NCBI RefSeq assembly: GCF_000316645.1
Contig: NC_019684.1
Location: forward strand, 5,058,001-5,122,000
Reading direction: 5' to 3'
DNA: 64,000 nt
Source: Nostoc sp. PCC 7524
GTDB taxonomy: Bacteria > Cyanobacteriota > Cyanobacteriia > Cyanobacteriales > Nostocaceae
The notes below the pieces were generated by a model that was not told the origin of the DNA, made no database searches, and saw only the letters and a list, made by a program, of their open reading frames with translations. A program made the position numbers and the translations under genes. Below, one piece after another: positions 2,387 to 63,626 of this stretch (positions are counted from its first letter, which is position 1; every line of letters begins with the position of its first letter).

Positions 2387-2400
2387 TTCTATAACAGGGG

Positions 2401-2442
2401 ACAGGTGACAGGTGACAGGTGACAGGTGACAGGTGACAGGTG
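2401..2442. repeat. Heptanucleotide tandem repeat, six copies of ACAGGTG
   Basis: Six uninterrupted copies of a 7-bp unit lie directly after the deacetylase gene. This is the short tandemly repeated repetitive (STRR) class typical of heterocystous cyanobacteria. The unit differs from the GGGGATT/GGGGACT family used elsewhere in the window. Confidence 0.9.
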
Positions 2443-2526
2443 ACGGACTTGAAAGCTTTTTAGTGTAACGGTTTTATGATTGCTTGATGTCCTAATCTAT
2501 ATGGCAATAATTCGTAATTCGTAATT

Positions 2527-2550
2527 AAAAAAGACGCGATTCATCGCGTC
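2527..2550 (-). terminator. Likely intrinsic terminator of the glutamate synthase gene
   Basis: A perfect 8-bp stem (GACGCGAT / ATCGCGTC, 2533-2540 and 2543-2550) with a 2-base loop is followed, on the minus strand, by six T. It lies about 70 bp past the gltS stop. The stem core also resembles a dispersed palindromic repeat common in Nostoc genomes, so a repeat may have been recruited as a terminator. Confidence 0.6.
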
Positions 2551-2621
2551 TCTACAAATAAATTGGTATTAGTCAAAAGTCATTGTCAACTTACTAATGA
2601 TTTTTGACTAATGATTAATAA

Positions 2622-5600: not shown

Positions 5601-7319
5601 GGACATCACCAGTTTTTCCCGCAGAGGGTCAATTGCTGGGTTGGTTACTTGAGCAAACCGTTGTTTGAAATAGTCATACAACAGGTGGGGTTTATCAGAC
5701 AACACAGCCAAAGGAATATCATCCCCCATGCAGAAAGTCGGTTCTGCGCCGTTGCTAGCCATTGGTTGAATCACCATTTCTACATCTTCTGTGGTGTAAC
5801 CAAAGGCTAGTTGTTGGCGGAGTAAGGTTTGTTTATCAATGGTATTGGTTGGCTGTTGTTCGTTATGTGCTAGATGACCATTACCATTACCGTTACCATG
5901 GCCGTTAACACTCGATACTTGCCCATCGAGCAATTGTTTCATATCTTGACGGTACTGTTTTAACCATGCACCGTAAGGATGTTGCTTGGCAATGCGCTGT
6001 TTAATCTCCCAATTCTTCAAGACTTCATGGTTGATTAAATCCACAGCAATCATTTGCCCAGGGCCAAGTCTACCTTTCTCGATAATGTTGGCTTCTGGTA
6101 CATCCACTACACCAGCTTCGGAAGCGACAATAATGTAGTCGTCTTTGGTAATCAGGTAACGAGCTGGTCTTAAACCGTTGCGGTCTAGGGTTGCACCGAC
6201 TTTTTTGCCATCACTAAATACTAACAGTGCTGGGCCGTCCCAAGCTTCTTGCAAGCCACTGTAATATTCGTAAAAATCGACAATTTCAGGATATTGACGC
6301 AAAGATGGTTGATTTTGGTAAGCCTCTGGCACCATCATCATCAAGGCTGCTTCTGGTGTTCGACCAGAACGCACTAATAACTCCAGCACATTATCTAAGG
6401 TAGCGGAGTCACTACTGTCAATATTGACTAAAGGTTTGAGTTCGGCAAAGCGATCTTCCCAAACTGGATGATTCAAGCTTGCTTCCCGTGCCATCATCCA
6501 ATTGATGTTACCCAACAAGGTATTAATTTCGCCGTTGTGACCTAAAAGCCGCATGGGTTGGGCTAGAGGCCATTTAGGCATGGTGTTGGTACTAAAGCGG
6601 CGGTGATAGACAGCAAAGGCACTTTGATAAGCGGGATTTTTTAAATCTAGATAGAATTCTCCCAAAACGGCGGAACGCACCATGCCTTTATAGACAATTG
6701 TGCGACTGGATAAGGAACAGACGTAAAATTCCTCAGAGATATTTTTCGCTGCCTTAACTATGCGGCGACGGGTAATATACAGATCCCTTTCTAGGTCATC
6801 ACCAGTTTTATCAGCTGCTAACAAGACTTGCTCAATTTGGGGTTGATTTTCTCGTGCCTGTATCCCCAGTAAATGCGGTTGTACTGGCACTACTCGCCAG
6901 CCCAGTACAGTTAATTTTTCTTCAGTGGCTATTTGCTCAAAAATGGCTTTAGCTGTTTTGGCAACTTCTGGATCCTGTGGCAAAAATATCATCCCTAAAG
7001 CAATATTGCTAGTAGATGAAAAGTCTATCTGTCCTAGGGAAGATTCTTGCTGTAACAACCCCCAAGGAATCGCAGTCAAAATACCCGCACCATCACCAGA
7101 GTCTTGGTCTGCGCTGCAACCCCCTCGGTGTTCTAAACAAGTCAAAGCAGCCAAAGCTTTTGCCACAATTTCATGGCTGGGATGATTTTGACGATGAGCA
7201 ATAAAACCTACACCACAGGCATCTCGTTCCTCTACTAACCACCTTTGCCCCTGGTAGGTATCTCTTGAGTTAATTTTCGCTGTGATTTCTGGGTTTTGAT
7301 TCATCGATTTATCATTCAT
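2622..7319 (-). CDS. gltS: Ferredoxin-dependent glutamate synthase (Fd-GOGAT)
   Basis: The enzyme converts glutamine and 2-oxoglutarate to two glutamates with photosynthetically reduced ferredoxin, the second step of GS-GOGAT ammonium assimilation. Domains run in the usual order: N-terminal class II amidotransferase with nucleophile Cys in ACGVGF (Cys35 from the start used), central domain, FMN-binding synthase domain with the 3Fe-4S ligands CX5CX4C (Cys1184, 1190, 1195), and C-terminal GXGXG beta-helix. The length of about 1565 residues fits the family. The residues before the catalytic Cys are a propeptide normally removed. The frame extends to an ATG at 7361, but the ATG at 7319 has AGGA upstream and gives a more usual propeptide. 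A Gly/Asn/His-rich linker near residues 475-485 looks like a lineage-specific insertion. It is transcribed alone. Confidence 0.97.
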
Positions 7320-8180
7320 AGCCTGTTCCTGAGTCACTTTCGCCACTGGTTGTGAAAACATTTTCTAAATTTCGTGCTGCATCAATATACAAATCACCGA
7401 AATTTAGGGAAAAAAAATTTTAACTTTGGTGTTTGTAAAACCACCCTCGTTAAAATGCTGACGTTGTTTACGCTATTTCTTATGTATTTATCCTGTGTTT
7501 GACAAAATACCTTTGCCTGAGAGCATTCTATTTATATCGTGAAGCTGTATACCTGCTCAATTTTTTGGTCGCAGATTAAATATCTTTTTTGAGAAAATTA
7601 AGCAATCTGGTGACGAGGAACAAAAACCCAGATCAATGCTTCACAGTATTCCAAGCTAATGAATCCTGATTTATTGGCAAAATCAGCGTATTACACTGTA
7701 TGCTATATGCCCATTTGACAATTCCTAAGTATTGTTTGTTATTTTGAGTTTTTCACTAATAAACTGTTGCCACTGTTTTTACTACCGTTTAGAACTGAAC
7801 TATTAAGTAGCCACCATGAACTCTTACACCAATAACGGATGAAAATAGGGACTAGAGACTAGAGGCTAGTAATTTTTACTCAGCACTCATGACTGTTTCA
7901 AGTTAGCAACAAAAAATACTTTACATCCTTGATGTAATATCTTAATTCAGATTTTACAACCAATACTACTGTTTATAGTCTGGTGATAACTATTGCTAGT
8001 TAAAGTATTTAGTCACAGTGGTTTTCGCGGCAAGCTTATCAGATATGACTTTAAGAGATAGAAAGCCAATATATACAATATCACATTTATTCCCAACTTG
8101 AATCGCTATTTTTTAAGATTTGCCGACAATTAGTTAACCTGTGATTTGAATAATAGGATTGCAAACTACCAAGATTAATT
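7320..8180. other. Intergenic region between divergent gltS and glycosidase genes
   Basis: About 0.85 kb that must hold both divergent promoters. No small gene or RNA is apparent. A short imperfect tandem (ACTAGAGACTAGAGGCTAG) is at about 7851-7869. I looked for an NtcA box (GTA-N8-TAC) that would link gltS to nitrogen control and found no convincing one by eye. Confidence 0.45.
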
Positions 8181-10232
8181 ATGGTAAAAATGCCAAATTG
8201 TCACCGAAAACAAAACTACAGTGCGATCGCCAACGGTGGGCAGAACGTCATCTCTATGAGAGGCTGCGCCAACGCCAAGCAGTTAAATTACAGCTTATTA
8301 CAGGCGACTATATCACCAATACTTGTAATATCACTGTGTTTGTCTGCTAGCTATGCCGCCAACGCCCAGACACCACTATCTGATGCTCAAGCCAATTCCA
8401 AATTAATTTCACAATCTGCCTCATCTGCTGGTAGCCAAATTTCCTTAAATGGTCGCAATCTGCCCGCAGCTTGGTGGCAGCAACCAGGAGGGACAAATCA
8501 AGTCAGAACATTCATCAGTGATGGTGCTTTGCGGCAATTGATAGGAATAGACTTATTAAGCAGCAACAATACAGCCAGGCAACCAATTCAGTGGTTTTCC
8601 GCAAGTAATCAATCATTAGTTTTAAATACGGCTCTATTGGCTGGCTATCGCTATCTTGATGTGACTAATTTAGCCCAAACCGCAGGATGGCAGATGCAAG
8701 TCCGAGGTAATACTTTAGTAATTACCACACCGCCAGCGCAAGTTAAAAATATTCGCCAAAGTCAACGACCTGCCATAGTTAGCAATAGTAGCCCTTTGCA
8801 AACAGCTCGCATTGTTTTGGATTTAGATCGCCCTACACCTTGGCAAGTCAGACAAGGATTACCAATCAAAACCCTACTTGATGATCCCAACAGCCCAGTT
8901 CCTAACGCATCTGCACCAGTTAACCGAGAGTGGACAATTGTCTTGGATGGTATAGCTGATGCTAGTTTAATTCAGCGATATACACCCTTACCTGCAACCC
9001 AGTCCCCAATCTTACAACCCAATCAGCTCAAACAATCACAGTCAAATCAAAGATTAGAGCCATTGATTCAAAAAGTAGAGGTGGTGAATAATCAGACTTT
9101 GATCAGTCTGAGCGTTCCATTGGATTTATCTCCCCAAATTAGCAGCATAGCTAATCCTAATCGCCTAGTAATTGATTTACGACCCGATGCTCTAAACACA
9201 AGAGATATCAACTGGGCTACAGGATTACGTTGGCGACAACAGTTGATCAATTTAGGTGCAGACCGATTTCCTGTAGTGTGGTTAGAAGTCAATCCCCGGA
9301 CTGTGGGACTAACTTTAAAACCTATGGTGGCAACCGCAGGTACTTTAATAGGCACAGCCCCCATTATTCAAACAGCCCAAAGATATCTAGCTGTAGCCGC
9401 CATCAACGCTGGTTATTTTAACCGCAATAACAGATTACCCTTGGGTGCAGTGCGTCGGGATGGTCAATGGTTATCTAGTCCTATTCTCAACCGAGGTGCG
9501 ATCGCCTGGAATGATTCTGGACAATTTCACTTTGGTCGCCTGACTCTACAAGAAACTTTAATTGCTGCTAATAACCTGCGATTACCAATTTTGTTTCTCA
9601 ACAGTGGCTATGTACAAAGTGGTATTGCTCGTTACACCCCGGTTTGGGGGGAAACCTATACACCCCTAACAGACAATGAAATTGTCCTGGTTGTCCAAAA
9701 AGACCAAATCACCAATCAATTAGCAGGTGGTAAAGCTGGTCAAACTAACCTTCCCATTCCCAAAGACGGATATTTATTAACTTTACGTGGTAGCGCCACC
9801 AACACAGCATCTCAATTAGCTGTGGGTTCTGCTGTCCGTATCAGTAGCACCACTACGCCTGCTGAGTTTAATCGTTATCCCCACATTATCGGTGCTGGGC
9901 CTTTACTGCTGCAAAATAGTCAAATTGTCCTCGATGCTCAAGCCGAACAATTTAGTAAAGCCTTCATTGCCCAAAAGGCTAGTCGCAGTGGCATTTGCAC
10001 AACTGCCAACGGTAGTTTGATGATTACTGCTGTACATAATCGCGCAGGTGGCCCTGGTCCCACTTTGGCAGAATACGCCCAATTAATGCAGCTGTTAGGC
10101 TGTGTAAATGCCCTCAACTTAGACGGCGGTAGTTCCACTAGTCTTTACCTAGGAGGACAACTACTAGACCGTTATCCTAACACTGCTGCTCGTGTACATA
10201 ACGGTATTGGCATTTTCCTACAACCAAGGTAA
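8181..10232 (+). CDS. Exported phosphodiester-glycosidase (NAGPA/DUF2233) domain protein
   Basis: This 683-residue protein has a signal peptide (hydrophobic residues about 44-58, likely cleavage after ANA at 62), so it is exported. Residues about 280-350 contain a beta-rich stretch that looks like an AMIN-type polysaccharide-binding module. The C-terminal third matches the NAGPA (phosphodiester glycosidase) family: AINAGYFNR, a GAGPLL turn, then HNRAGGPGPT and LNLDGGSSTS (around 645). Members cleave GlcNAc-1-phosphodiester-type linkages; in cyanobacteria a role in envelope or exopolysaccharide metabolism is an inference. The first 25 residues are encoded by a GCGATCGC-containing interspersed repeat, so translation may really begin at the ATG at 8256, which leaves a cleaner signal peptide. 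No operon partner. Confidence 0.8.
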   Translation: MVKMPNCHRKQNYSAIANGGQNVISMRGCANAKQLNYSLLQATISPILVISLCLSASYAANAQTPLSDAQANSKLISQSASSAGSQISLNGRNLPAAWWQQPGGTNQVRTFISDGALRQLIGIDLLSSNNTARQPIQWFSASNQSLVLNTALLAGYRYLDVTNLAQTAGWQMQVRGNTLVITTPPAQVKNIRQSQRPAIVSNSSPLQTARIVLDLDRPTPWQVRQGLPIKTLLDDPNSPVPNASAPVNREWTIVLDGIADASLIQRYTPLPATQSPILQPNQLKQSQSNQRLEPLIQKVEVVNNQTLISLSVPLDLSPQISSIANPNRLVIDLRPDALNTRDINWATGLRWRQQLINLGADRFPVVWLEVNPRTVGLTLKPMVATAGTLIGTAPIIQTAQRYLAVAAINAGYFNRNNRLPLGAVRRDGQWLSSPILNRGAIAWNDSGQFHFGRLTLQETLIAANNLRLPILFLNSGYVQSGIARYTPVWGETYTPLTDNEIVLVVQKDQITNQLAGGKAGQTNLPIPKDGYLLTLRGSATNTASQLAVGSAVRISSTTTPAEFNRYPHIIGAGPLLLQNSQIVLDAQAEQFSKAFIAQKASRSGICTTANGSLMITAVHNRAGGPGPTLAEYAQLMQLLGCVNALNLDGGSSTSLYLGGQLLDRYPNTAARVHNGIGIFLQPR

Positions 10233-10293
10233 TAGGGAATTGGGACAGGAAGTATGGGGAAAATCCTTCCCTCATACTCCCCTGCTTCTTCCT

Positions 10294-10320
10294 AGTCCCC
10301 AGTCCCCAATCCCCAATCCC
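10294..10320. repeat. Heptad tandem repeat (CCCCAGT/CCCCAAT type)
   Basis: Four degenerate copies of the heptad AGTCCCC/AATCCCC follow the glycosidase gene, with a pyrimidine-rich CCCCTGCTTCTTCC lead-in. It is the dominant intergenic repeat class of this window. Confidence 0.8.
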
Positions 10321-10543
10321 TTTTTAAAGTAGAGAATAAGCTGCCATTCAGCTTAATGAAGACTTGGTGTAGACCAATAATTTGAGCAAAGATTCCTTAC
10401 CTATCAAAGTTTTGCTTTGCTATGTTTAGCAGAGAAAAACTAAATTGCTGATTTTCACGGTTGTAAAATTGCTCAGAAGTTTTCCATCAATTGTTAAGAG
10501 TTAAGAGTAATGACGGTTTGTTATGTCTACAAATGAGGTAACT

Positions 10544-10963
10544 ATGGCTCAACATCAAGAAACCACAAAAACTAGCACTTTGACCCTATCGAGTGCGATC
10601 GCTAGCCGGGGTGTTGCTGCCACTGAACTGCGTCCTTGGGGTTCTTTCACCGTTTTAGAAGAAGGACGCGGTTATAAAATTAAGCGGATTGAAGTTAAGC
10701 CTGGACATCGCCTCAGTCTACAAATGCACCATCATCGCAGTGAACACTGGATTGTTGTCTCTGGTACTGCTAGGGTAGTGTGTGGTGACGAAGAAGTATT
10801 ACTCAGCAATAATCAATCGACATACGTACCTCAGTGTACTGCCCACAGATTAGAGAATCCTGGAGTAATTCCTTTGGTACTGATTGAAGTTCAAAATGGC
10901 GAATATCTGGGTGAAGATGATATTATTCGCTACCAAGATGATTATGCCCGCACTGCCAATTAA
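10544..10963 (+). CDS. Cupin-type mannose-6-phosphate isomerase (type II PMI)
   Basis: A small single-domain cupin matching the type II phosphomannose isomerase C-terminal family, which interconverts mannose-6-phosphate and fructose-6-phosphate for GDP-mannose and polysaccharide synthesis. The metal site is clear in HHHRSEHWIVVSG (His-His-His, Glu, His), and ELRPWG and YVPQCTAHRLENPG are typical of the family. In other bacteria this domain is fused to a GDP-mannose pyrophosphorylase; here it stands alone. The frame also has an ATG at 10523, but GAGG at 10535-10538 is spaced correctly for the ATG at 10544. Alternative: a sugar-phosphate cupin of other specificity. Confidence 0.85.
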   Translation: MAQHQETTKTSTLTLSSAIASRGVAATELRPWGSFTVLEEGRGYKIKRIEVKPGHRLSLQMHHHRSEHWIVVSGTARVVCGDEEVLLSNNQSTYVPQCTAHRLENPGVIPLVLIEVQNGEYLGEDDIIRYQDDYARTAN

Positions 10964-11054
10964 TTTTAGGGTGTAGGGGTTTAGGGCTGGGGAGATGAGA
11001 CGAAGCAGGGAGCAGAGGGGCAGAGGGGCAGAGGAGACAAGGTAGATTTTTATC

Positions 11055-11093
11055 CAGTCCCCAATCCCCAATCCCCAGTCCCCAATCCCCAAT
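11055..11093. repeat. Heptad tandem repeat (CCCCAAT/CCCCAGT type)
   Basis: Five to six copies of AATCCCC/AGTCCCC lie between the cupin and IscA-like genes, preceded by a GGGGCAGAGGGGCAGAGG purine run. Confidence 0.85.
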
Positions 11094-11170
11094 TTTCAAC
11101 TAATGACTTTTGTAGGCGATCCATCTGTAATACTTAGATATGGAGTTTTGGATCGGCTAAATTATATTTC

Positions 11171-11506
11171 ATGATTCATGTGAGCCAAGCAGCAGCAACT
11201 GAAATCAGTCGCTTACGCGCAAAGCAACAACCAAACAAGTTTTTTCGGTTAGCAGTTAAATCCGGTGGCTGTTCCGGTTGGTTTTACGATATGTCTTTTG
11301 ATGAACAGATCGAGGCAGGCGATCGCGTTTTTGAGGTTAACAGCCTGTCAGTAGTCATAGATGCCACCAGCTGGGATTACGTCAATGGGTTAGCAATAGA
11401 TTATTCAGAGGATTTGATGGGTGGAGGTTTTCGCTTTCATAATCCTCAAGCTGTTGTTACCTGTGGCTGTGGCAATTCCTTCTCTACTACTCCAACGGTG
11501 GCTTAA
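11171..11506 (+). CDS. HesB/IscA-type iron-sulfur carrier
   Basis: An A-type Fe-S carrier of 111 residues, the usual family size. The three conserved cysteines are present: Cys34 in SGGCSG and Cys98/Cys100 in the CGCG tail. Such proteins receive clusters from the SUF scaffold and pass them to targets, or bind iron. The ATG at 11171 starts the conserved N-terminus directly. It lies just upstream of the ribosomal protein operon, but the 110-bp gap and different job suggest a separate transcript. Sequence alone does not tell IscA from SufA-like roles. Confidence 0.9.
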   Translation: MIHVSQAAATEISRLRAKQQPNKFFRLAVKSGGCSGWFYDMSFDEQIEAGDRVFEVNSLSVVIDATSWDYVNGLAIDYSEDLMGGGFRFHNPQAVVTCGCGNSFSTTPTVA

Positions 11507-11617
11507 GCAAAAAATTAAAAATAAATAATCTGAGAGTTTGACATAAAAGCATAAAAAAAGATATAATCAGGATTTGTTAAAACTTAGACTAGCAATCAGC
11601 TTCACGCGCTGTTACTC

Positions 11618-12001
11618 ATGCCAACAATACAGCAATTAATACGTAGCGAACGCGAAAAAGCGCGTCAGAAAACCAAGTCACCGGCTCTCAAGCAATGCCC
11701 CCAGCGTCGGGGCGTTTGTACCAGAGTATATACGACTACACCTAAAAAACCCAACTCGGCTCTGCGTAAAGTAGCAAGAGTAAGACTGACCTCTGGATTT
11801 GAAGTGACAGCTTACATCCCCGGAATTGGCCACAACTTACAAGAACACTCAGTTGTGATGATTCGTGGTGGTCGGGTTAAGGATCTGCCTGGTGTGAGAT
11901 ATCACATAATTCGTGGCACCTTGGATACAGCTGGAGTAAAAGACCGTAAACAAGGTCGTTCCAAATATGGAACCAAGCGTCCCAAAGAAGCGAAAAAATA
12001 G
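11618..12001 (+). CDS. rpsL: 30S ribosomal protein S12
   Basis: Protein S12 of the small subunit, at the decoding centre. It has 127 residues, slightly longer than E. coli S12 as usual in cyanobacteria, with the conserved [13 protein letters not shown] loop where streptomycin-resistance changes and a conserved Lys occur, and [13 protein letters not shown]. It is the first gene of the str operon rpsL-rpsG-fusA-tuf, all on the plus strand. The C-terminus is lysine-rich and binds rRNA. Confidence 0.98.
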
Positions 12002-12400
12002 GAATAGCGATTAATCGTTAACTCATGCGATTGATCGCTTGACCATAAAGCGCCAAAAATCAATAACCATGAAAGGCGCTAGTTCTGAAACAGTATTAAT
12101 TACTTATAAAATCCCTGTTTCCAGAAATTTGGTAAAGCTTCTACTTCAAACCTACTACTCAGCGAGCAAGTGTAGGTAGCATAAGAAATGTTGTAAGCGG
12201 CAGCAGCATTTATTTTTGCACCCTAGATTACTCAGACTATTGTCGCTTTGTGTTCTCAGTTGAGAAGTCTAGAACAAATTAGGGTCACTGCAACCGTAGA
12301 GCCAACCATTGCGGAACCTCATCTGTAGCCGCAAAGCTCAGAGAATCCGCCGTCTGATAGCATATAATTTCGTTGCCAAATCTGAATTTAAGGTTAAAGT
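12002..12400. other. Unusually long rpsL-rpsG spacer
   Basis: 399 bp separate two genes that are normally close in the str operon. Just after rpsL an imperfect inverted repeat (AGCGATTAATCG at 12006-12017 against CGATTGATCGCT at 12028-12039) could attenuate or process the mRNA. A second promoter for rpsG-fusA-tuf in this space is plausible (inference). No reading frame of note is present. Confidence 0.5.
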
Positions 12401-12871
12401 ATGTCTCGTCGTGGTGTTACTCAAAGGCGGCCAGTTCCGTCTGACTCCGTGTACAATAGTCGGCTTGTGAGCATGATCATCCGACGGGTGATGCGTCATG
12501 GCAAAAAATCATTGGCTGCACGCATTGTCTATGATGCTTTAAAAACTATAGAGGAACGTACTGGTAACAATGCACTAGAAGTGTTTGAAAGAGCAGTACG
12601 CAACGCCACCCCTCTAGTAGAAGTAAAAGCTCGTCGGGTTGGTGGTGCAACCTATCAAGTACCAATGGAAGTACGTTCAGAACGGGGTATTACCCTCGCC
12701 CTGCGTTGGCTGGTACAATTTTCTAGGTCTAGACCTGGACGCACAATGGCTAGCAGATTAGCTAACGAATTACTAGATGCTGCCAATGAAACAGGCAACG
12801 CTATTCGTAAGCGGGAAGAAACACACCGGATGGCGGAAGCAAACAAAGCTTTTGCACACTATCGTTACTAA
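12401..12871 (+). CDS. rpsG: 30S ribosomal protein S7
   Basis: A primary 16S rRNA-binding protein that organises the 30S head. At 156 residues it has standard length, begins MSRRG and contains the conserved [12 protein letters not shown] and [14 protein letters not shown] stretches. It follows rpsL in the str operon and precedes fusA by 140 bp. AAGG lies about 10 bases before the ATG. Nothing unusual in the protein. Confidence 0.98.
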
Positions 12872-13011
12872 GTAAAATAGCGGTATATCGTGCCTCCCAA
12901 AGCGGTATATCGCAGAATTACACAAGCAAAGACGGTTTTCCGTAAGAGTATAGAATCTTAACAAAGAGTAATATACAAGATATCATGAGGCAAAAACCAT
13001 AGGAGGATACT

Positions 13012-15090
13012 GTGGCACGTACAAACCCGCTAGAGAAAGTACGCAATATCGGTATTGCGGCGCACATAGATGCGGGCAAAACAACGACAACAGAGAGAAT
13101 ATTATTTTACTCTGGAATAATTCATAAAATTGGGGAAGTCCACGAAGGAACTGCTGTAACTGACTGGATGGATCAAGAGCGGGAGCGGGGGATTACCATC
13201 ACTGCTGCGGCGATCAGTACCAGCTGGAAAGATCATCAAATTAACATTATCGATACTCCAGGCCACGTAGACTTCACCATTGAAGTTGAACGTTCTATGC
13301 GGGTGTTGGATGGTGTAATTGCAGTATTTTGCTCTGTAGGTGGTGTACAACCCCAATCAGAAACAGTGTGGCGGCAAGCAGATCGCTACAAAGTGCCTCG
13401 GATTGCCTTTATTAACAAGATGGATCGCACAGGCGCGAACTTTTATAGAGTTCACGAACAAATGCGCGATCGCCTACGGGCTAATGCCATTGCTATTCAA
13501 CTGCCCATTGGTAGCGAAAACGAATTCAAAGGCATTGTAGACTTGGTAAGAAAGCGGGCGTATATCTATACCAATGACCAAGGTACAGATATCCAAGAAG
13601 CTGATATTCCGGCGGATATGCAAGAGCAAACCGAAGAGTACTATACCAAGTTAATAGAAGCAGTTGCCGAAACCGACGACGCGCTGATGAACAAGTACTT
13701 CGAGGGTGAAGCACTTACAGAAGAAGAAATCCGTACTGCTTTGCGTAAAGGTACAATCGCCGGTGCGATTGTACCCGTACTCTGTGGTTCAGCCTTTAAA
13801 AACAAAGGCGTGCAGTTAATGTTGGATGCAGTTGTAGATTATCTGCCCGCACCAACAGAAGTACCTCCCATTCAAGGTACACTCGCCAATGGTGATACCG
13901 TCGAGCGCCGAGCTGATGATGATGAACCCCTAGCGGCGCTGGCATTTAAAATTATGGCTGACCCCTACGGTCGCCTCACCTTTGTACGTGTCTACTCTGG
14001 CGTTCTGAAAAAAGGTAGCTATGTATTAAACGCTACCAAAAACAAGAAAGAAAGAATTTCCCGTTTAGTAATCTTAAAAGCAGATGAACGTCAAGATGTA
14101 GAAGAGCTACGTGCAGGTGATTTAGGCGCTGCATTGGGTTTAAAGGAAACCTTGACAGGTGATACTATCACTGATGAAGGCGCACCAGTAATTCTGGAAT
14201 CCCTATTCATTCCAGAGCCTGTAATCTCGGTAGCGGTTGAACCCAAAACCAAGAACGACATGGATAAGCTATCCAAGGCTCTGCAATCTCTCTCAGAAGA
14301 AGACCCGACCTTCCGCGTCAACGTTGACCCAGAAACCAACCAAACTGTAATTGCAGGGATGGGTGAACTCCATCTAGAAATTCTGGTAGACCGGATGTTG
14401 CGCGAATTTAAAGTAGAGGCGAACGTGGGTGCGCCACAGGTAGCTTACCGAGAAACGATTCGTAAACCAGTTACCAACGTAGAAGGTAAGTTCATCCGTC
14501 AAAGTGGTGGTAAAGGTCAATACGGTCACGTTGTAATCAATTTGGAACCAGGAGAACCTGGTACAGGCTTTGAATTCGTCTCAAAAATTGTTGGTGGTGT
14601 AGTACCTAAAGAGTACATTGGACCTGCCGAACAAGGTATGAAAGAAAGCTGTGAATCTGGTATTTTAGCTGGATATCCACTAATTGATGTCAAAGCGACG
14701 TTAGTTCATGGCTCTTACCACGATGTAGACTCTTCGGAAATGGCTTTTAAAATTGCTGGATCAATGGCAATGAAAGAAGCTGTACTGAAAGCTTCACCAG
14801 TATTGTTAGAGCCTGTAATGAAAGTTGAGGTGGAAGTTCCTGAAGACTTTATTGGGAACGTGATTGGCGACCTCATCTCTCGTCGGGGGCAGATTGAGAG
14901 CCAAAGCACTGAACAGGGACTCGCTAAAGTGGCATCAAAAGTTCCACTGGCGACCATGTTTGGCTACGCTACCGATATCCGGTCGAAAACCCAAGGTCGG
15001 GGTATCTTTACGATGGAGTTCAGCCACTACGAAGAGGTACCTCGTAACGTGGCTGAGGCAATTATCGCAAAAAGCAAAGGGAACGCTTAA
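13012..15090 (+). CDS. fusA: Elongation factor G
   Basis: The translocation GTPase, 692 residues, full length. The N-terminal G domain shows the P-loop [13 protein letters not shown], the switch region [16 protein letters not shown] and NKMDRTGA; domains II-V follow to a normal C-terminus. The start is GTG at 13012, preceded by a strong AGGAGG at 13001-13006. Within the str operon, tuf follows after 22 bp, so the two are co-transcribed. Cyanobacteria often carry further EF-G paralogues; this str-operon copy is the housekeeping one. Confidence 0.98.
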
Positions 15091-15112
15091 TTAAAAAAGG
15101 AAACGAGCATTC

Positions 15113-16342
15113 ATGGCACGCGCAAAGTTTGAAAGGAATAAACCCCACGTTAACATCGGTACTGTTGGCCACGTTGACCACGGTAAAACTACTTTAACAG
15201 CAGCTATTACCATGACCTTGGCTGCTTTGGGTAAAGCTGAAGCTAAAGCTTACGACCAAATCGATAACGCACCCGAAGAAAAAGCACGGGGTATTACAAT
15301 TAACACTGCTCACGTTGAGTATGAAACTGACAGACGGCACTATGCTCACGTAGATTGTCCCGGACACGCTGACTATGTGAAAAATATGATCACTGGTGCA
15401 GCACAAATGGATGGGGCTATCCTCGTGGTAGCTGCTACTGATGGTCCTATGCCCCAAACTCGTGAACACATTCTGTTAGCACGTCAGGTAGGTGTACCTA
15501 ACCTAGTAGTCTTCTTGAACAAGGAAGACATGGTGGACGACGAAGAATTGCTAGAGTTGGTGGAACTAGAAGTTCGGGAACTGCTCTCTAGCTATGACTT
15601 CGATGGTGACAATATTCCCGTTGTTAAAGGTTCTGGTCTGCAAGCTTTAGAAGCTATGGTCAAGAACCCCAAAACCCAACGTGGTGAAAATCCTTGGGTA
15701 GACAAAATCTATGCATTGATGGATGCTGTAGATTCTTACATTCCCGACCCAGAGCGTGATGTTGACAAGCCTTTCTTGATGGCTGTAGAAGACGTATTCT
15801 CCATCACAGGTCGTGGTACTGTAGCTACCGGACGGATTGAACGTGGTAAGGTCAAAGTCGGCGATGTTGTGGAATTAGTAGGTATCAGAGATACCCGTAA
15901 CACCACCGTCACCGGGATTGAAATGTTCAAGAAGAGTCTCGATGAAGGTATGGCTGGTGATAACGCGGGTGTACTACTGCGCGGTATTCAAAAGGCTGAT
16001 ATCGAACGGGGTATGGTAATTGCTAAACCCGGTTCTATTACTCCTCACACCCAATTTGAAGGTGAAGTATACGTACTCACTGAAAAAGAAGGTGGTCGGA
16101 AAACACCCTTCTTCTCTGGCTACCGTCCCCAGTTTTATGTACGGACAACTGATGTAACCGGCACAATTACAGCCTTCACTTCTGATGATGGTAGTGAAGC
16201 AGAAATGGTGATGCCCGGCGATCGCATCAAGATGACAGTAGAATTGATTAACCCAATCGCGATTGAGCAAGGTATGCGCTTTGCGATTCGTGAAGGTGGT
16301 CGCACCATCGGTGCTGGTGTCGTCTCAAAAATCCTCAAATAG
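15113..16342 (+). CDS. tuf: Elongation factor Tu
   Basis: Carries aminoacyl-tRNA to the ribosome. It is 409 residues, the usual cyanobacterial length. Motifs are intact: [14 protein letters not shown]-loop, [24 protein letters not shown] and the C-terminal [13 protein letters not shown]. The spacer to fusA is 22 bp with an AGGAAACGAG leader. A strong hairpin follows the gene, so rpsJ is probably expressed partly from its own signals. Confidence 0.99.
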
Positions 16343-56542: not shown

Positions 56543-58129
56543 ATGGATGCGAAGGCACTTTGGCAACGATACCAAGATTGGTTATATTTCCACGAGGGAT
56601 TAGGACTGTATCTAGATGTTAGTCGGATGCGTTTTGATGATGCCTTCGTGAATTCGTTGCTGCCGAAGTTTGACAAGGCGTTTGCGGATATGGCGCAATT
56701 GGAGAAGGGTGCGATCGCTAATCCGGACGAGAACCGCATGGTTGGACACTACTGGCTAAGAAACCCAGACTTAGCGCCTACTCCAGAACTTACACAAGAA
56801 ATTGTCCAAACCCTAGAACAAATCGAAGCCTTTGCTGAAAAAGTCCAAACAGGTGCTATTCATCCTCCCAAAGCAAGCCGCTTCACAGATATTATCTCTA
56901 TTGGGATTGGGGGTTCTGCCCTCGGCCCTCAGTTTGTCGCTGAAGCCCTCACCCCAGAATTTCCACCCCTGAAAATTCACTTTATTGACAATACTGATCC
57001 GGCTGGGATTGATCGGGTTCTCACTCACCTCAGAAATAATTTGGCTAGCACTTTGGTGTTAGTCATTTCTAAATCTGGAGGCACACCAGAACCCCGTAAC
57101 GGCATGATTGAAGTCAAAAAAGCCTATGCTGGACAAAATTTAGATTTTGCTCAATATGCAGTAGCTATTACCAGTGCTGATAGCAATCTAGACAAATTAG
57201 CAAAAGCTGAAGGCTGGCTAGCAAGATTCCCCATGTATGACTGGGTGGGTGGACGTACTTCAGAAATGTCTACTGTCGGTTTAGTTCCCGCCGCATTGCA
57301 AGGTATTGATATTCGCGCCATCCTAGAGGGTGCGAAAGAAATGGATGACGCTACCCGCGTCACTGATGTGAAAAAGAACCCGGCGGCGTTGCTGGCTTTA
57401 TCTTGGTATTTTGCTGGTAACGGTAAGGGTGAAAAAGATATGGTTGTCTTACCCTACAAAGACAGCTTGCTGTTGTTCAGCCGCTATTTACAACAGCTAG
57501 TTATGGAATCCTTGGGTAAGGAGAAAGACTTAGATGGCAATACTGTTTACCAAGGTATTGCTGTTTATGGTAACAAAGGCTCAACTGACCAACACGCTTA
57601 TGTGCAGCAGTTGCGTGAAGGTGTACCCAATTTCTTTGCTACCCTGATCGAAGTTTTAGAAGATCGTCAAGGCCCATCTCCAGAAATAGAACCTGGTGTA
57701 ACATCTGGTGATTATCTCTCTGGTTTTCTTCAAGGAACTCGCCAAGCCCTGTATGAAAATCAGCGCGATTCGATTACAGTCACCGTTCCCCAAGTTAACC
57801 CCCGCATTGTAGGCGCGTTAATCGCTTTGTATGAGCGTGCTGTCGGTTTGTATGCTAGTTTGGTCAACATCAATGCTTACCATCAACCAGGGGTAGAAGC
57901 TGGGAAAAAAGCTGCGGCTGCCATTCTCGATCTGCAAACTAAGGTAGTAGGATTACTACAAACAGAGAAAACTGCCCTCTCTGTAGAACAAATCGCGGAA
58001 AAAGTGGGTGCTGCGGATCAAGTAGAAGCCATCTACAAAATTCTGCGTCATTTGCACGCTAATCAACGCGGTGTAGTATTCCAGGGAAATCTGGGACAAC
58101 CGGGTAGTGTAAAGGTTTCTCTCGGCTGA
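56543..58129 (+). CDS. pgi: Glucose-6-phosphate isomerase
   Basis: Interconverts glucose-6-phosphate and fructose-6-phosphate in glycogen turnover, the oxidative pentose phosphate route and glycolysis. 528 residues, with [16 protein letters not shown] (about 125), [11 protein letters not shown], and the late [15 protein letters not shown] and catalytic His/Lys regions ([12 protein letters not shown]). It is the cyanobacterial short-form PGI. The ATG at 56543 follows a GGACAC leader. No operon partner; the gene after it is on the other strand. Confidence 0.97.
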
Positions 58130-58289: not shown

Positions 58290-58952
58290 TTAGTACAGGT
58301 TTTGGCTGACGAAGTGTTGGTTAAAGTAGCTCTTGGGTAGAAAACAGCGATCGGGTAAGAAAGGATCATCTGTATATTGGGATAGGAAAGCTAAGGGTGG
58401 ATCTTTGTGACAAAATGGAGCCACAAGTCCCCATTCTTCTGCTAACCAAATCCAGTATCCTATTTCAATCTTGCCGTAGTTTGATACAGTGAGAATTTCA
58501 CCAACGCTGTTATTAATTGGTACGACTTCAGGGGATGACTTGATTTCTGTTAACAGCCAACCTAACTCATCTACAGTAAAGTAATAATCATAATTAGCAG
58601 CTATGTTAACGAACTGCTGGGGGTTTTTAGCTGCTAGCAGTTTATCTTTGAGGGTTGGTGTTTTTTGAGCTAAATCAAATAATTCCCAAATCTGCTTTCT
58701 GGTAACAAGAAACCAAGCCAATTCCTCCGCCGTTAAACTATAGCCGTTCTGTTTTGCTAAGTTAATAAACTGCTCAAGGTTATAAGTTTCTCCTAGTTGA
58801 TGTTTGATGAAGAAATCTTGTTCTACAAATGTGAAGAAATCATTAATTTTTTGCCATGTAGACTTATTAAAATTATTGGGACTTTTTATTTTTTCTTTCC
58901 AATTAATATATTCTTCATCTTTGAGAAAGAAATTCCAAATCTGGTAATACAT
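58290..58952 (-). CDS. Protein with two Nif11-like units
   Basis: 220 residues. Two copies of a Nif11-like pattern are seen: NLEQFINLAKQNGYSLTAEELAWFL (about 66-90) and NPQQFVNIAANYDYYFTVDELGWLL (about 110-134). Nif11 domains occur as N-terminal leader regions of RiPP precursors and in proteins linked to nitrogen fixation. Here there is no GG cleavage site or Cys-rich core, and the C-terminal 80 residues (IWLAEEWGLVAPFC, PDRCFLPKSYF) are a separate unknown domain. So it is probably not a RiPP precursor. No modifying enzyme or transporter lies nearby. Confidence 0.6.
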   Translation of the reverse strand: MYYQIWNFFLKDEEYINWKEKIKSPNNFNKSTWQKINDFFTFVEQDFFIKHQLGETYNLEQFINLAKQNGYSLTAEELAWFLVTRKQIWELFDLAQKTPTLKDKLLAAKNPQQFVNIAANYDYYFTVDELGWLLTEIKSSPEVVPINNSVGEILTVSNYGKIEIGYWIWLAEEWGLVAPFCHKDPPLAFLSQYTDDPFLPDRCFLPKSYFNQHFVSQNLY

Positions 58953-59495
58953 AATTCATTTTTCCTTAATATTTAGAGTGGTTGGGAGTATTATTAAATA
59001 TCAGTGTAGTCAGTATCTCATTGGTTATTCGACAGTATTAATTTAAAAGTTTTTGTAAAGGCAAACACTCAGGGTACAAGTATGAAGTTTATGTAAAGTC
59101 TGTTACTTTGATTGACGGTATCTAAACGTAAATAAGAGGCGATCGCGTCTAGTTTACTGTTACTTTTCTTAATATAAAATCACAGGTATTTTAGTGAGAG
59201 CGATCGCTCATAATTTATTGTTACTTTTCTTCATCTAAAATTAGAGTAACACTGATAATTTTGGGTGTAAAAATTATGAATTGACAGCAAAACTACTCTG
59301 GGAGAGCCAAAATAAATTATTCCAAATTGACGCTTAGTGCGGTGCGTCAGTATGAATAATTTCTTGGTACAGCTAGGTTTTCTCCCACTGACGCACCCTA
59401 CATTTTGCTGTTGGGGATGAGATTACAGAAGTTTTATTAGGTTCAGAGTAGTCACAGAGGCACAGAGGTAAGGATTAATGCACACTGGGCTGTTA
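58953..59495. other. Repeat-bearing region between the Nif11-like gene and the accessory operon
   Basis: 540 bp. Two HIP1-containing direct repeats (separate entry) and an inverted repeat GGTGCGTCAGT / ACTGACGCACC (59341-59351 and 59387-59397) typical of dispersed Nostoc palindromes. No gene. Confidence 0.55.
59139..59262. repeat. Two direct repeats with HIP1 cores
   Basis: GCGATCGC followed about 10-13 bases later by GTTACTTTTCTT and an AT-rich tail with AAAATCA or AAAATTA, occurring twice about 62 bp apart. The copies are about 70% alike. The first 8 bases are the HIP1 octamer. Confidence 0.6.
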
Positions 59496-60965
59496 TTAGT
59501 TAATTAGTAAATCACGGAGGTAGTAAAAGCGATCGCTTCTCCAATCACTACCTTTAATTCTTCCTAAATAACCTGTTAATGGTGATGAAAGTTCTATTAA
59601 AATTTCGTGCATTTCTTCTGTTTTTAATGGCTGTGGCGGATTTGAACCGAAATATGCACCATGTAAAGCCTCAACCCCAGAAAATTCTATACCTGAGTTT
59701 TGTAAATAATTTTTAACAAGCTGTATAATGTGCGATCGCATACTCAAATCTAAATAAACTTGGTCAATATATCTTTCAACTTCTTGATCAGATTGACCTG
59801 CTTTTAAGTATTCTTTCAGCCTAAATAAATCTACTGAATTGCGGTGATTGCTTTGCAATTTAACGAGTTTTTCAAGTGTTTCTGGGTTCATAATAGCCAT
59901 ATCTTGTATTTTTGCAGCATCATTGAGTTGGATTGTAGCTTCACCTGGCCCGATAATTAATTTAGTCGCTTGCTTAAATAATTCCTGGCTTTTTAAGCGT
60001 AGAGTTCCTAAGTTTAATAGTTGTACTGCGGTATCATTAGGAATTTTTTTACCAGCTTTGCATTCTGCAACTAATGGATAAGGTTGTGAACAGAATACAT
60101 CTACACCACCAGCACCACCTTTATGGAAATAGTCAACTGTAAAGCCTAAAAATTCAAGGCTTCGACGAACTATAATTTCAAAATCTGTCCCAGCTTGATA
60201 ATTATTTTTTCCCGCATCTTCTTCTTTACTACGATTACCCAGAGATGCAATCTCATTTATCCAAGCTAAATCTGTATTTATTGACTGAATCTGCTTAGTA
60301 TTTTTCCAACCTAAAAATATTTGAATATCATCATCTAATTCTTTAACTGCTGGTTTAGTAATTGCAAGTGGAGCTAGAATACTCTGCAATTCTTCTAATT
60401 CAGGATGCGGTGGAGGTTCTAAGTTCTCTAGTTGTTTTCTGCGTTGTGCGAAGATGCGATCATTTAATATTGGGTTGTCTTCAGAACCCTTAAAATTAGG
60501 TAAACTAACGAATCTACCTAACTTTTCTTGAATGTTGGGATTAACTGCAACTTCACAGACATGAGATAAATGATAAACACGTAAGTAAGCCAGAAATATG
60601 TTTTCTTGCTTCTGTATGATGGACTCAAATGCTTCTGATGTCCATATTGTTAACTCAGATAAAAGCTTTAAAGGTTTAGTCTTGTCTATAATTTGGCAAA
60701 GTTCACATTTAGCCCAAGCTTTAATTGAGACAGTTTGAGACGAGTTTAATTTAATATTTTTTTGAGTAATTGATAATAAATTGGCGTGATAGTATTGCCC
60801 AATTGAAAGTATATTGTTGGAATACTCAGCAGGATAAAGAGAAAACCTCTGCCCAGGACGCATAAACATCTTGGGCATAGCTGCAATTGTTCGCCCCTGT
60901 ATTAAAGCTTCAATTTCAGGGGCAGGTAAACATAATGCTGTTGGAAGTGAAAACAGCTGATTCAT
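59496..60965 (-). CDS. PD-(D/E)XK nuclease with DUF1802-like N-terminus (third gene of accessory operon)
   Basis: 489 residues. The C-terminal half contains a restriction-endonuclease-like core: DFEIIVRRSLEFLGF (Glu263), GGAGGVDVF (Asp289) and VAECKAGKK (Glu301, Lys303), the PD-(D/E)XK layout of Mrr/HSDR_N-type nucleases, followed by a TAVQLLNLGTLRL helix. The N-terminal 150 residues resemble DUF1802, a domain of unknown function, with RFSLYPAEY. It begins 10 bp after the stop of the ATPase gene, so both are in one operon. An active nuclease coupled to an ATPase suggests a DNA-targeting role. Confidence 0.78.
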   Translation of the reverse strand: MNQLFSLPTALCLPAPEIEALIQGRTIAAMPKMFMRPGQRFSLYPAEYSNNILSIGQYYHANLLSITQKNIKLNSSQTVSIKAWAKCELCQIIDKTKPLKLLSELTIWTSEAFESIIQKQENIFLAYLRVYHLSHVCEVAVNPNIQEKLGRFVSLPNFKGSEDNPILNDRIFAQRRKQLENLEPPPHPELEELQSILAPLAITKPAVKELDDDIQIFLGWKNTKQIQSINTDLAWINEIASLGNRSKEEDAGKNNYQAGTDFEIIVRRSLEFLGFTVDYFHKGGAGGVDVFCSQPYPLVAECKAGKKIPNDTAVQLLNLGTLRLKSQELFKQATKLIIGPGEATIQLNDAAKIQDMAIMNPETLEKLVKLQSNHRNSVDLFRLKEYLKAGQSDQEVERYIDQVYLDLSMRSHIIQLVKNYLQNSGIEFSGVEALHGAYFGSNPPQPLKTEEMHEILIELSSPLTGYLGRIKGSDWRSDRFYYLRDLLIN

Positions 60966-60975
60966 TTCTAGTTAA

Positions 60976-62886
60976 CTATAAGGTTAATTCAATTTTTTCG
61001 TCATTAGTAAAGCTTTGAGGTATTCTCATTGGCAGCTCATCATCTGTCAAATTATCAGGTTCTTGTCCAGAAGGATCGCTGAGTATTTCTCTAATCAATG
61101 GATTATTGATTACTAATTGCTTCTGCTCAATAAAATCAAATATTTGTTCCTCTGTCAGTTCGTAGCTTTCACTGTTATACCAAACAAAATAGATAGCTAA
61201 AAGAGATTTAATATCTTGGCTTTGCAATGCTACCCATTCTCCACCCCTTTCTTGTAAAAGTATTCTCAAACGTTCTCTAGCTAATGCAGCACCTGAATTA
61301 ATTTGTTTGGAACGAACTAAGCAGCCACGAGTTAGATTAAATTTTTTGTAATCAATTAATCGCTTCAATGTAGCACCTATAAATTTACCATCTTGTTGAA
61401 CTACACTTACCCCAATCCTTACTTTTCCATCGTTACCAACAATTATGAAATCTATGAATCCCTGATCTGCCGCACTAGCCTCAATTGCTGCGATTTCATC
61501 AATAATTATTCCTTCTAATGTTTTACCTACTAAGCTATCAAAAGCCAGCCAAAGAGATTCAGCAATATTTACCTCTTCTTCCATTAATGAACCAATAGAA
61601 GATTCAACATTTGCTAGTTCACTATCAAAGTATGGTTTTACAGGATGGACTGTGGAAGATTTCCAAGCATTTGTAACATTTGGCTCTACTGTACAGGATT
61701 TATCATTAATAGATTGGCAAGGAAGAAAATTTTCTGCACACCATTTTAGAACTGACCTAATAGTTGGCTTACCCTTACCAAGTTCTCTGAGTTTAGCTTC
61801 GTCAAATGGGTAGAGAGGATGAGGAGGATTTTGATTATTTTCCTGATAAAATTCTTTTAACCATTGCTGAACGAGAGCAACGATATCATCAGCATTTAGA
61901 TATTTTAATGCAATTGGTTGTCTGTCAGTTTGTTCACTTACTAATCTATCAACAACTGCCTCAGCCTGCGGTAATGCCCTAATTTGATCATTCCAAATTT
62001 CGGGATACATTGTTAGAAGTAAAACACCTTGTTTGAGACTGTTGTATAAATCTTTAGTTAAATTGGCAACAATTTGTGCTGCTGTAAATCCTGTATCAGA
62101 AACATCTGTAATATCTAATTCATCAAAGCAAATTACCGTAACTCTGTAATGACTTGTTATGTCTAATATCTGTCGTACATTACTTAATGCTTCAGCTTCT
62201 CTGTCTTCATTTTTAGGATTTGGTAAACCCAGTACATCACCTTGTGTTTGAGTTATTTCTAAACCTGATAGCCAATAGGTTGCATAATGAGCGTGTGTTT
62301 TCGAGAGTGTCCACAAAATAGCTCTAATGATGTAGGGGTTATTAATTTCAGGCTTAATTTTTAAGACTGATTCTGTTAAAATGTCAATTGTTTTAGTTGA
62401 ATATTTGCTTAACCAATTTGGATAAATACTACTAATGTATTGTTGTGGTGTATTGTTCCAACCTTTAGCTTCATTGATTAAAGCCGTAGCTATTTCTTGC
62501 CACTGCATCACTTCTTGACTGCCAAATGCTCTCAAACTAGAAGCAACGGTTTGCTGAAATTGATATTTAATTTGATTCAAGTTGTCATACTTGCTCATGT
62601 AAATGAATAATGTATTATCTTGTGATTGCAAGCGATGACGTATACGGCTAATAATATGACTTTTACCTAAACCTTTTTCAGCAGTTATTGTAATACCTAC
62701 AGTTTCGCGCTTACCATTACGTATTTTTTCAACTGCATCAAACACTGCTTTAGAAGCATGAGCATTAATAGATGGAACATCAGGATAACTTTTACCCCAT
62801 ATTTGCTGAGGTCTGACAACAATATGTCCTGCAAATGGGTTGTGATTTCTAATTAGTTCATCAATGGTAGACGTAGTAGCAATCAT
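60976..62886 (-). CDS. P-loop ATPase of an accessory operon
   Basis: About 636 residues. The P-loop AEKGLGKSH and Walker B VTVICFDELD are clear and about 180 residues apart, as in ORC/STAND-like AAA ATPases and the ATPases of some defence operons. A helical region with RLVSEQTDR and a lid-like VLKWCAENF follows. The C-terminal 150 residues (ESLWLAFDSLVGKTLEG, FIDFIIVGNDGKVRIGVSVV) have a fold reminiscent of a PD-(D/E)XK nuclease that lost its Lys. The frame extends to a TTG at 62952 overlapping the gene before it; the ATG at 62886 is preferred. Function unknown. Confidence 0.78.
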   Translation of the reverse strand: MIATTSTIDELIRNHNPFAGHIVVRPQQIWGKSYPDVPSINAHASKAVFDAVEKIRNGKRETVGITITAEKGLGKSHIISRIRHRLQSQDNTLFIYMSKYDNLNQIKYQFQQTVASSLRAFGSQEVMQWQEIATALINEAKGWNNTPQQYISSIYPNWLSKYSTKTIDILTESVLKIKPEINNPYIIRAILWTLSKTHAHYATYWLSGLEITQTQGDVLGLPNPKNEDREAEALSNVRQILDITSHYRVTVICFDELDITDVSDTGFTAAQIVANLTKDLYNSLKQGVLLLTMYPEIWNDQIRALPQAEAVVDRLVSEQTDRQPIALKYLNADDIVALVQQWLKEFYQENNQNPPHPLYPFDEAKLRELGKGKPTIRSVLKWCAENFLPCQSINDKSCTVEPNVTNAWKSSTVHPVKPYFDSELANVESSIGSLMEEEVNIAESLWLAFDSLVGKTLEGIIIDEIAAIEASAADQGFIDFIIVGNDGKVRIGVSVVQQDGKFIGATLKRLIDYKKFNLTRGCLVRSKQINSGAALARERLRILLQERGGEWVALQSQDIKSLLAIYFVWYNSESYELTEEQIFDFIEQKQLVINNPLIREILSDPSGQEPDNLTDDELPMRIPQSFTNDEKIELTL

Positions 62887-62924
62887 AGTATGTTGAAGTT
62901 TATTTAGTGAGGAGTTTAGAAAAT

Positions 62925-63626
62925 CTAGGCTTTGAGAAGTTTGGCGTAACAACGTAGTCCATCTAACACAGTAGTAATGGAATCTTCTATTTTGTCAGGT
63001 GCATTATCCTCTACAGTTCCGCCTTGCAACTGCAAAATATCATCAGATTGCATCTCTAGCAGCCAATCATTAAATTGTGTACGACTCACCCGATCGCCTA
63101 CTTGTCTCCTAATCCGATAAATTGGTACTAGATGATTGAAGTTGTATTCATAATTCAACTTGTCGTAAACTTCCAGCACCGTTGATTTAAACTCGTCATA
63201 AGATGTGATAATCGCCACCTTATTGCCCTGATTCGATTGCTTATCTGAATCAGCCTGAGAAATCCCTACACTATCTATCTGACGAATCCATTTAACCAAC
63301 GCATTTGCAACTCGCACTCCAATTTGATTGCCATCAAACTCAAAATTACCGCTTTTTAATCCATCGCTAAGAATTTGCAAGCCTGTATCAGTCAGAGACA
63401 TCTTTGCTACTCTGTTTGTAGTAGCGATCGCGATCGCTCCAGTTTCTTGTAATTCTTCAAAAACTACCTGATAGTCTTTGGCCTTTTCATTAGTCCGTAT
63501 TACTCTCTTGGTGAGATCGCTTTTTTTAACTTCTGCTTTTGCGCCTCCTAAATCCCACAACGCCAGCAGAGTCAGAGTTTTAGCTTGAGCTTCTCCGCCT
63601 TTTAAGCCAGTATTCTTTGATACCAT
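62925..63626 (-). CDS. Winged-helix-like protein, first gene of the accessory operon
   Basis: 233 residues. Residues 10-85 (LTLLALWDLGGAKAEVKKSDLTKRVI... VVFEELQETGAIA) fit a winged helix domain; the C-terminal half (LVPIYRIRRQVGDRVSRTQFNDWLLEMQSDDILQLQGG) looks like a second one. No family name comes to mind. The stop lies 38 bp before the preferred ATPase start (or overlaps it by 28 bp if TTG is used), so the three genes are one operon. It may be the operon's DNA-binding or target-sensing subunit. Confidence 0.72.
   Translation of the reverse strand: MVSKNTGLKGGEAQAKTLTLLALWDLGGAKAEVKKSDLTKRVIRTNEKAKDYQVVFEELQETGAIAIATTNRVAKMSLTDTGLQILSDGLKSGNFEFDGNQIGVRVANALVKWIRQIDSVGISQADSDKQSNQGNKVAIITSYDEFKSTVLEVYDKLNYEYNFNHLVPIYRIRRQVGDRVSRTQFNDWLLEMQSDDILQLQGGTVEDNAPDKIEDSITTVLDGLRCYAKLLKA

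Follow-up and report, generated by a model that had tools for sequence, protein, structure and literature searches.

A candidate restriction-like ATPase-nuclease operon in the pgi-mdh interval of Nostoc sp. PCC 7524 and its relatives

The window, a stretch of 64,000 nucleotides (positions 5,058,001 to 5,122,000 of NC_019684.1), lies on the 6.6-Mb contig of the ~6.7-Mb genome of Nostoc sp. PCC 7524 and carries three genes on the minus strand at 59496..63626, here called the trio: a small, probably winged-helix protein (gene 1), an AAA+ ATPase (gene 2) and a PD-(D/E)XK nuclease protein (gene 3). A preliminary description had proposed them as a possibly undescribed operon acting against foreign DNA. 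The open reading frames (ORFs) it reported, separated by gaps of 38 and 10 bp, were recovered unchanged, as were the ATPase motifs AEKGLGKSH and CFDELD, the nuclease core residues and a neighboring Nif11-like gene. The features are, in window positions:

62925..63626, minus strand: gene 1, small protein of 233 residues, probably winged-helix (called winged helix-turn-helix, wHTH, in the preliminary description and in the published type discussed below)
60976..62886, minus strand: gene 2, AAA+ ATPase, 636 residues from its ATG
61717..62886, minus strand: gene 2 residues 1-390, predicted Orc/Cdc6/TnsC/MuB-like AAA+ domain
61081..61638, minus strand: gene 2 residues 417-602, C-terminal alpha/beta domain
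59496..60965, minus strand: gene 3, nuclease protein of 489 residues
60474..60953, minus strand: gene 3 residues 5-164, predicted ASCH/PUA-like domain (DUF1802)
59751..60284, minus strand: gene 3 residues 228-405, PD-(D/E)XK nuclease domain with E263, D289, E301 and K303
59499..59750, minus strand: gene 3 residues 406-489, predicted C-terminal winged helix, the last codons being the scar kept in replaced slots
58290..58952, minus strand: Nif11-domain gene (Pfam E 1e-16), a recurrent slot neighbor outside the system
56543..58129, plus strand: pgi, left core flank of the slot, named by NCBIfam
about 0.3 kb past the window end: mdh, right core flank of the slot, named by NCBIfam

An in-frame TTG at 62952 is a possible alternative start of gene 2, which would then overlap gene 1. 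The trio proteins have 1293, 2058 and 1194 homologues at E 1e-3, and the order gene 1, gene 2, gene 3 on one strand recurs in 45 of 46 fetched loci of relatives; given these homologue numbers and the conserved gene order, the trio is not a chance set of ORFs. The 46 loci were picked for having a trio-class ATPase, and matches in genomes G003, G024, G046 and G077 lie outside the set (G numbers denote relatives' genomes, G000 being the Nostoc sp. PCC 7524 genome itself, and L numbers fetched loci). The odd locus out, L070, holds a lone distant ATPase, and the ATPase of L054 consists of two ORFs. Glu263, Asp289 and Glu301-Cys302-Lys303 are identical in all 46 aligned nuclease homologues, the window's own included. 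Among named homologues, the ATPase is closest to one from Anabaena minutissima (98%), and scanning public species genomes with an alignment of the nuclease returned 248 relatives; the 80 retained all bear cyanobacterial names. We conclude that the trio is an intact, order-conserved operon.

Several features had escaped the first description, namely DUF1802, which gene 3 matches with a Pfam-type domain E-value of 4e-38, the ASCH-like and winged-helix folds, the published system type and the pgi/mdh flanks. The gene 3 model comprises an ASCH/PUA-like domain (DUF1802), a FokI/BspD6I-like PD-(D/E)XK nuclease and a winged helix, and the gene 2 model an Orc/Cdc6/TnsC-like AAA+ ATPase; the underlying fold lists (VIA-align) span part of each model only, and other folds are possible. 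In these lists the ATPase fold is equally close to TnsC, MuB and Orc, the nuclease domain is closest to DNA-cutting enzymes, and the nearest folds of the ASCH-like domain include a Zymomonas ASCH protein and the TRIP4 ASCH domain with double-stranded DNA. The modeling thus suggests that the DUF1802 fold is ASCH/PUA-like. By analogy with known families (PMC11037411, PMC7641849), such a domain together with a winged helix on a nuclease suggests recognition of a modified base or site; for the Orc/TnsC-like ATPase, the family suggests that it assembles on DNA with the help of ATP. In the gene 2 C-terminal domain, a region outside fold-search coverage, the order of modeled elements fits an inactive restriction endonuclease (REase) insert; sequence profiles, inspected for a degenerate nuclease at the gene 2 C-terminus, gave no similarity to gene 3. 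Sequence searches with PADLOC, PHROGs, NCBIfam and the PDB returned nothing useful for the trio, and gene 1 had no family match at a useful level in these or in Pfam-type searches. NCBIfam matches of the ATPase to Sll1717-type (1.7e-6) and DS41_1 (2e-5) models fall far under the curated cut-offs and look like shared AAA features, and YTH matches to the ATPase profile (E about 0.01) were taken as chance.

The gene combination is nevertheless not undescribed. In its section on the class, a study in Nucleic Acids Research (2024; PMC10853773) predicts in silico that operons of an Orc/CDC6 ATPase, an ASCH-REase and a DndG-like triple wHTH protein form a counter-invader system, the ATPase having an inactive REase between AAA+ domain and C-terminal wHTH; that section ties the class to mobile gene neighborhoods and names no fixed site. 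The trio is this combination, sharing an Orc/CDC6-clade AAA+ ATPase, an active-type REase fused to an ASCH domain, and three genes in one operon, the small wHTH-like protein included; it differs in occupying a fixed site. The same account also covers Orc/CDC6-HerA/FtsK capture operons with a 3'-5' exonuclease. Unlike these, the trio is without a HerA/FtsK translocase; what the genome of Nostoc sp. PCC 7524 does share with them is a paralogous operon in which a wHTH-ATPase pair precedes an exonuclease-PDDEXK-FtsK protein. This operon (G000:C2 about 252,727-258,400; L078 5228-10901) encodes proteins of 282 residues, 723 residues (the ATPase) and 863 residues, the last with 3'-5' exonuclease, PDDEXK_1 and FtsK domains, and in relatives' loci fetched for it the first two genes recur in 12/12 and the third in 10/12.

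A further likeness is to type IV restriction. According to the accounts in PMC7897488 and PMC11037411, EVE-HNH joins a PUA-superfamily reader to a nuclease in modification-dependent restriction, and fusions of winged helix and nuclease also occur in such restriction, ASCH as a reader of N6-methyladenine being described as unconfirmed. The trio likewise has PUA-superfamily-like and winged-helix domains on one nuclease chain; the model places a reader-type fold and a nuclease fold there, base reading being only predicted, and the trio differs by adding an AAA+ ATPase and a third protein. A stand-alone DUF1802 protein is encoded elsewhere in the same genome (L172, G000:C2:729278-729796), with similar proteins of ~200 residues in many relatives; should the fold indeed be ASCH-like, this protein may act as a reader that has no nuclease attached. 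The literature searched, which covered few subscription papers, yielded no experimental test of the trio; the name DUF1802 occurs there in one paper, on soil gene networks.

NCBIfam names the core genes at the main site pgi, mdh, mutM and psaE. pgi and/or mdh flank 75 of 128 loci, a set that includes short contigs and twice-fetched genomes, in which L078 is the paralogue's locus and L032-L077 overlap with L092-L171 in genomes. A second recurrent address of the trio adjoins folC and pilM, likewise named by NCBIfam (6/128; L043, L053, L056, L068, L076 and L120). pgi and mdh face each other at most 16 kb apart in at least 46 of 162 family genomes, and among the 46 intact pgi-mdh slots listed, 35 have the nuclease inside, as a decayed trio in two cases (G131 and G196), and 11 are without it. 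A nuclease match at E 1e-20 occurs in 125 of the 162 genomes; in three (G114, G144 and G094) it is a 3' fragment only, and in at least 91 of the remaining 122 the nuclease lies within 12 kb of pgi or mdh.

Presence is patchy: a long nuclease match was found in 48 of 79 genomes (own included). The trio is absent or decayed in the same-genus genomes G004, G009, G011 and G012; relics were found in G009, G062 and G077 and at second sites in G043 and G046, with stops or breaks in others. This is not a locus conserved in all relatives without a link to defence, the pattern that the preliminary description had named as contrary to its proposal. The ATPase match in L205 (G131, 4988-6807) ends at about residue 253 and abuts a nuclease match from about residue 152, an internal deletion; another has removed the ATPase match from L204 (G196, 2457-4241), leaving a nuclease match from residue 140 behind gene 1. 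The nuclease match at G006:C1:2151312-2153971 stops after residue 453, and its last 42 residues follow ~1.2 kb further downstream, as though an insertion had separated the two parts. Tandem arrays of at least two trios with divergent copies and fragments occur in L124 (Oscillatoria sp. PCC 10802), L213 (G145, 6776-15449) and L208 (G156, 128-11948). Small repeat-rich 'DPYGDPADQY' proteins and a protein of ~164 residues recur in pgi-mdh slots with or without the trio (e.g., L195 3200-4093).

Many trio-less slots retain traces of gene 3. The nuclease 3' end (14 to 53 aligned residues) is kept in the expected orientation in 8 of 14 such slots (11 intact intervals and three one-sided ones, G011, G115 and G189), namely those of G009, G011, G022, G080, G122, G144, G165 and G168; the nuclease-tail comparison yielded no accepted scar in G013, G140, G166, G175, G115 and G189. 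With the highest-scoring of many query tails taken in each case, the scars reached 26.2 to 94.7 bits, compared with at most 23.9 bits for reversed slot sequence; the weakest (G165 and G168, 26.2 bits; G022, 29.6 bits) are also backed by a pattern search. A 28.5-bit tail match in G166 was rejected, since its strand is wrong with respect to mdh and it falls within another ORF. A degenerate 3'-end pattern with up to three mismatches has a single genome-wide match, at the slot, in G000, G009, G011, G022 and G165, and two in G168 (the slot and one other with three mismatches); genome-wide, it is absent from G080, G013 and G175, and the backward pattern used as control is absent from all nine genomes. 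The simplest reading is that the trio was present first and was then replaced, because its upstream genes are gone. The palindrome GCGATCGC (HIP1) lies within the scar in three replaced slots (L176 ~7438, L179 ~7107 and L198 ~6216) and also in the intact nuclease 3' end of the window, and is missing from the G168 scar; a role for it in recombination would be a guess.

The slots without the trio hold diverse genes. A SLFN/AlbA_2-TPR protein (labeled from a Pfam scan of the G011 copy) and a reverse transcriptase (RT) occur together in G022 and G168, and in G011 between mdh and the Nif11 gene. The RT matches PADLOC at E 2.1e-135 or better in all three, and we call it retron-type because no Rfam match to a retron RNA was found in the three RT loci; in each, the scar starts 10 to 20 bp past the RT stop codon. 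A NACHT domain protein (Pfam E 1e-13) occupies the slots of G013 and G165, followed by a second ORF in G165, and a PDC-S28 helicase those of G122 and G175 (E below 1e-275). Beside mdh in G189, where a contig end breaks the slot, are two genes, one BnzB-like (E 1.4e-65) and the other weakly PDC-M09A-like. The SLFN/AlbA_2-TPR and RT pair spans three genera (L176 4963-7411, L179 4772-7083 and L200 2095-4767), with RTs 78-89% identical and partners only 53-60% identical, and may represent an unlisted retron-like system. In L174 (G004, 6521-9367), where pgi is not near mdh, a protein of 948 residues, NACHT-like with pentapeptide repeats by eye, lies two genes from mdh.

Alleles of the trio itself have been exchanged between inherited flanks. 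We compared 29 distinct loci with both flanks, kept from 30 qualifying ones after one identical ATPase was dropped. The mean amino-acid distance, 0.13 for pgi and mdh together, rises to 0.31 in gene 1, 0.42 in the nuclease and 0.49 in the ATPase; expressed as average identity, the core flanks reach 87%, the nucleases 58% and the ATPases 51%. Distances correlate at 0.85 between pgi and mdh, and pgi distances correlate at 0.60 with those of gene 1, 0.33 with the nuclease and 0.03 (p 0.29) with the ATPase. By region of the nuclease, the correlation with the core is 0.46 at residues 151-224 and about zero at residues 225-349, the catalytic core. In approximately unbiased (AU) tests, gene 1, the ATPase and the nuclease each reject the core tree, and the core rejects theirs (all p <=0.003). 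pgi and mdh reject each other's trees too (AU p 0.001 and 0.0001), with likelihood differences of 62 and 79 units compared with 349 to 1054 between pgi or mdh and the trio trees; for gene 1, the ATPase tree is not rejected in the Shimodaira-Hasegawa test (p 0.08). From the distance correlations and tree tests we conclude that the site is inherited and its contents exchanged, the ATPase and the catalytic region of the nuclease being the most freely exchanged parts, a pattern that would fit escape from phage-made inhibitors.

The repeats noted in the first description are real, with short direct repeats, imperfect inverted arms and a 47-bp direct repeat (59139-59185 and 59200-59246, 81%) that starts with GCGATCGC and lies between the trio and the Nif11 gene. 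The 401 bp next to gene 1 showed no inverted pair, and within the stretches scanned the trio is not bracketed by one.

Taken together, the trio is probably a restriction-like system that targets the DNA of invaders and belongs to the predicted Orc/Cdc6 - ASCH-REase - wHTH type. The proposal that the operon acts against foreign DNA gains strength from its patchy presence, decay and allele replacement and from other defence-like genes in the same slot, several beside a trio scar. Slot ORFs of at least 200 residues match PADLOC at E 1e-40 in 6 of 19 cases, compared with 3 to 7 of 120 proteins elsewhere (Fisher p 0.0002 to 0.003; the controls scanned were 120 of 142 candidates, the upper count of seven arising as five PD-T4-6 models each matched one member). 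A number of observations weigh the other way. This enrichment was spotted first and tested afterwards against a background of mostly core genes, and 13 of the 19 slot ORFs, the NACHT and AlbA_2 proteins included, are without a strong PADLOC match. Read by eye, the G166 slot holds two flavin adenine dinucleotide (FAD) oxidoreductases and that of G144 an ATP-binding cassette (ABC) transporter with trio relics; only small genes are present in G080 and G140, and small genes with a relic in G009. In agreement with the preliminary description, which had found no named system, each trio protein matches 0 families of PADLOC-DB 2.0.0 at E 1. The inactive-REase insert and triple winged helix given for the type in PMC10853773 are not confirmed in the Nostoc trio, and patterns matched on viral contigs (493 for the ATPase, 5 for the nuclease) include none confirmed as a relative. 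Finally, in most family members the trio occupies a fixed site flanked by core genes, which sets it apart from a classic mobile island, and the earlier label of an accessory island thus fits only in part.

Mechanistically, some feature of incoming foreign DNA, a modified base being the most plausible candidate, would be sensed by the gene 1 protein together with the ASCH and winged-helix parts of gene 3; the ATPase of Orc/TnsC type would assemble with ATP on the sensed DNA and license gene 3, whose FokI-like PD-(D/E)XK domain would cut the invader. Gene clustering of the loci revealed no fourth gene family recurring as an obligate partner (methyltransferases were not searched for), and since none was seen, absence of the trigger from host DNA is presumably what protects the host.

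Other explanations account for parts of these data. The combination of an Orc-like ATPase with a nuclease, its wide presence in the family and the pgi/mdh synteny (at least 91 of 122 nuclease genomes within 12 kb) would suit a housekeeping DNA repair or recombination operon at a conserved site, yet the trio is absent or decayed in four genomes of the same genus, its ATPases average 51% identity between flanks 87% identical, and other defence-like genes lie beside its scar; we consider this explanation highly improbable. A Tn7/Mu-like or other selfish element, whose ATPase and nuclease move or maintain the cassette at a preferred site, is very unlikely: an ATPase fold as close to TnsC and MuB as to Orc, the fixed site and the tandem copies in L124, L208 and L213 would suit it, but no inverted repeats frame the trio in the stretches scanned, no fourth gene family recurs as partner (by clustering only, which was not scanned for transposases), and trio-less slots show 3' remnants instead of clean excision.

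Two further alternatives concern the target. An abortive-infection or RNA-targeting variant, in which ASCH reads RNA or a small molecule and the activated nuclease harms the host, draws on the RNA binding that PMC7641849 also reports for ASCH/PUA domains and on the Zymomonas ASCH protein among the nearest folds; the nuclease fold, however, is closest to DNA-cutting enzymes and TRIP4 ASCH with double-stranded DNA is equally among those folds, making this variant unlikely. That the trio chiefly blocks plasmids, integrative elements or transformation, not phage, is a minor but real possibility; no phage-specific signal emerged from this analysis, the published class is tied to mobile gene neighborhoods in the section cited from PMC10853773, and nothing direct speaks against it. 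The best reading of the trio remains a restriction-like system resident at this site and subject to decay, allele swapping and replacement.

More tentatively, and with odds we place somewhat short of even, the observations can be joined into one scheme. The Nostocales pgi-mdh interval would be a one-cassette immune slot with the ASCH-nuclease/Orc-ATPase system as ancestral resident. ATPase and nuclease core would be exchanged as separate alleles by homologous recombination via the core flanks, gene 1 staying closer to the host lineage, and whole systems (retron-type RT, NACHT, PDC-S28) would replace the resident with a preferred junction in the last nuclease codons, the residual 3' end serving as landing or recombination site and DUF1802 as modified-DNA reader. 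Defence hotspots between core genes are described for Pseudomonas (cDHS1/2; PMC10250203) and E. coli (PMC10121019), and in these accounts share fixed core-gene flanks and alternative immune systems with the pgi-mdh slot, which differs in being dominated across genera by one short cassette that leaves a scar on loss.

The system type had already been predicted, whereas slot, scars and allele mosaic are, to the extent of the literature searched, new. They add evidence from evolution to a type of system that, as far as found, rests on gene-neighborhood prediction, and they point to a fixed chromosomal slot of immune-like gene exchange in multicellular cyanobacteria in which further unknown systems can be sought. 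Should gene 3 turn out to be modification-dependent, this would also matter for transforming Nostoc and Anabaena strains.

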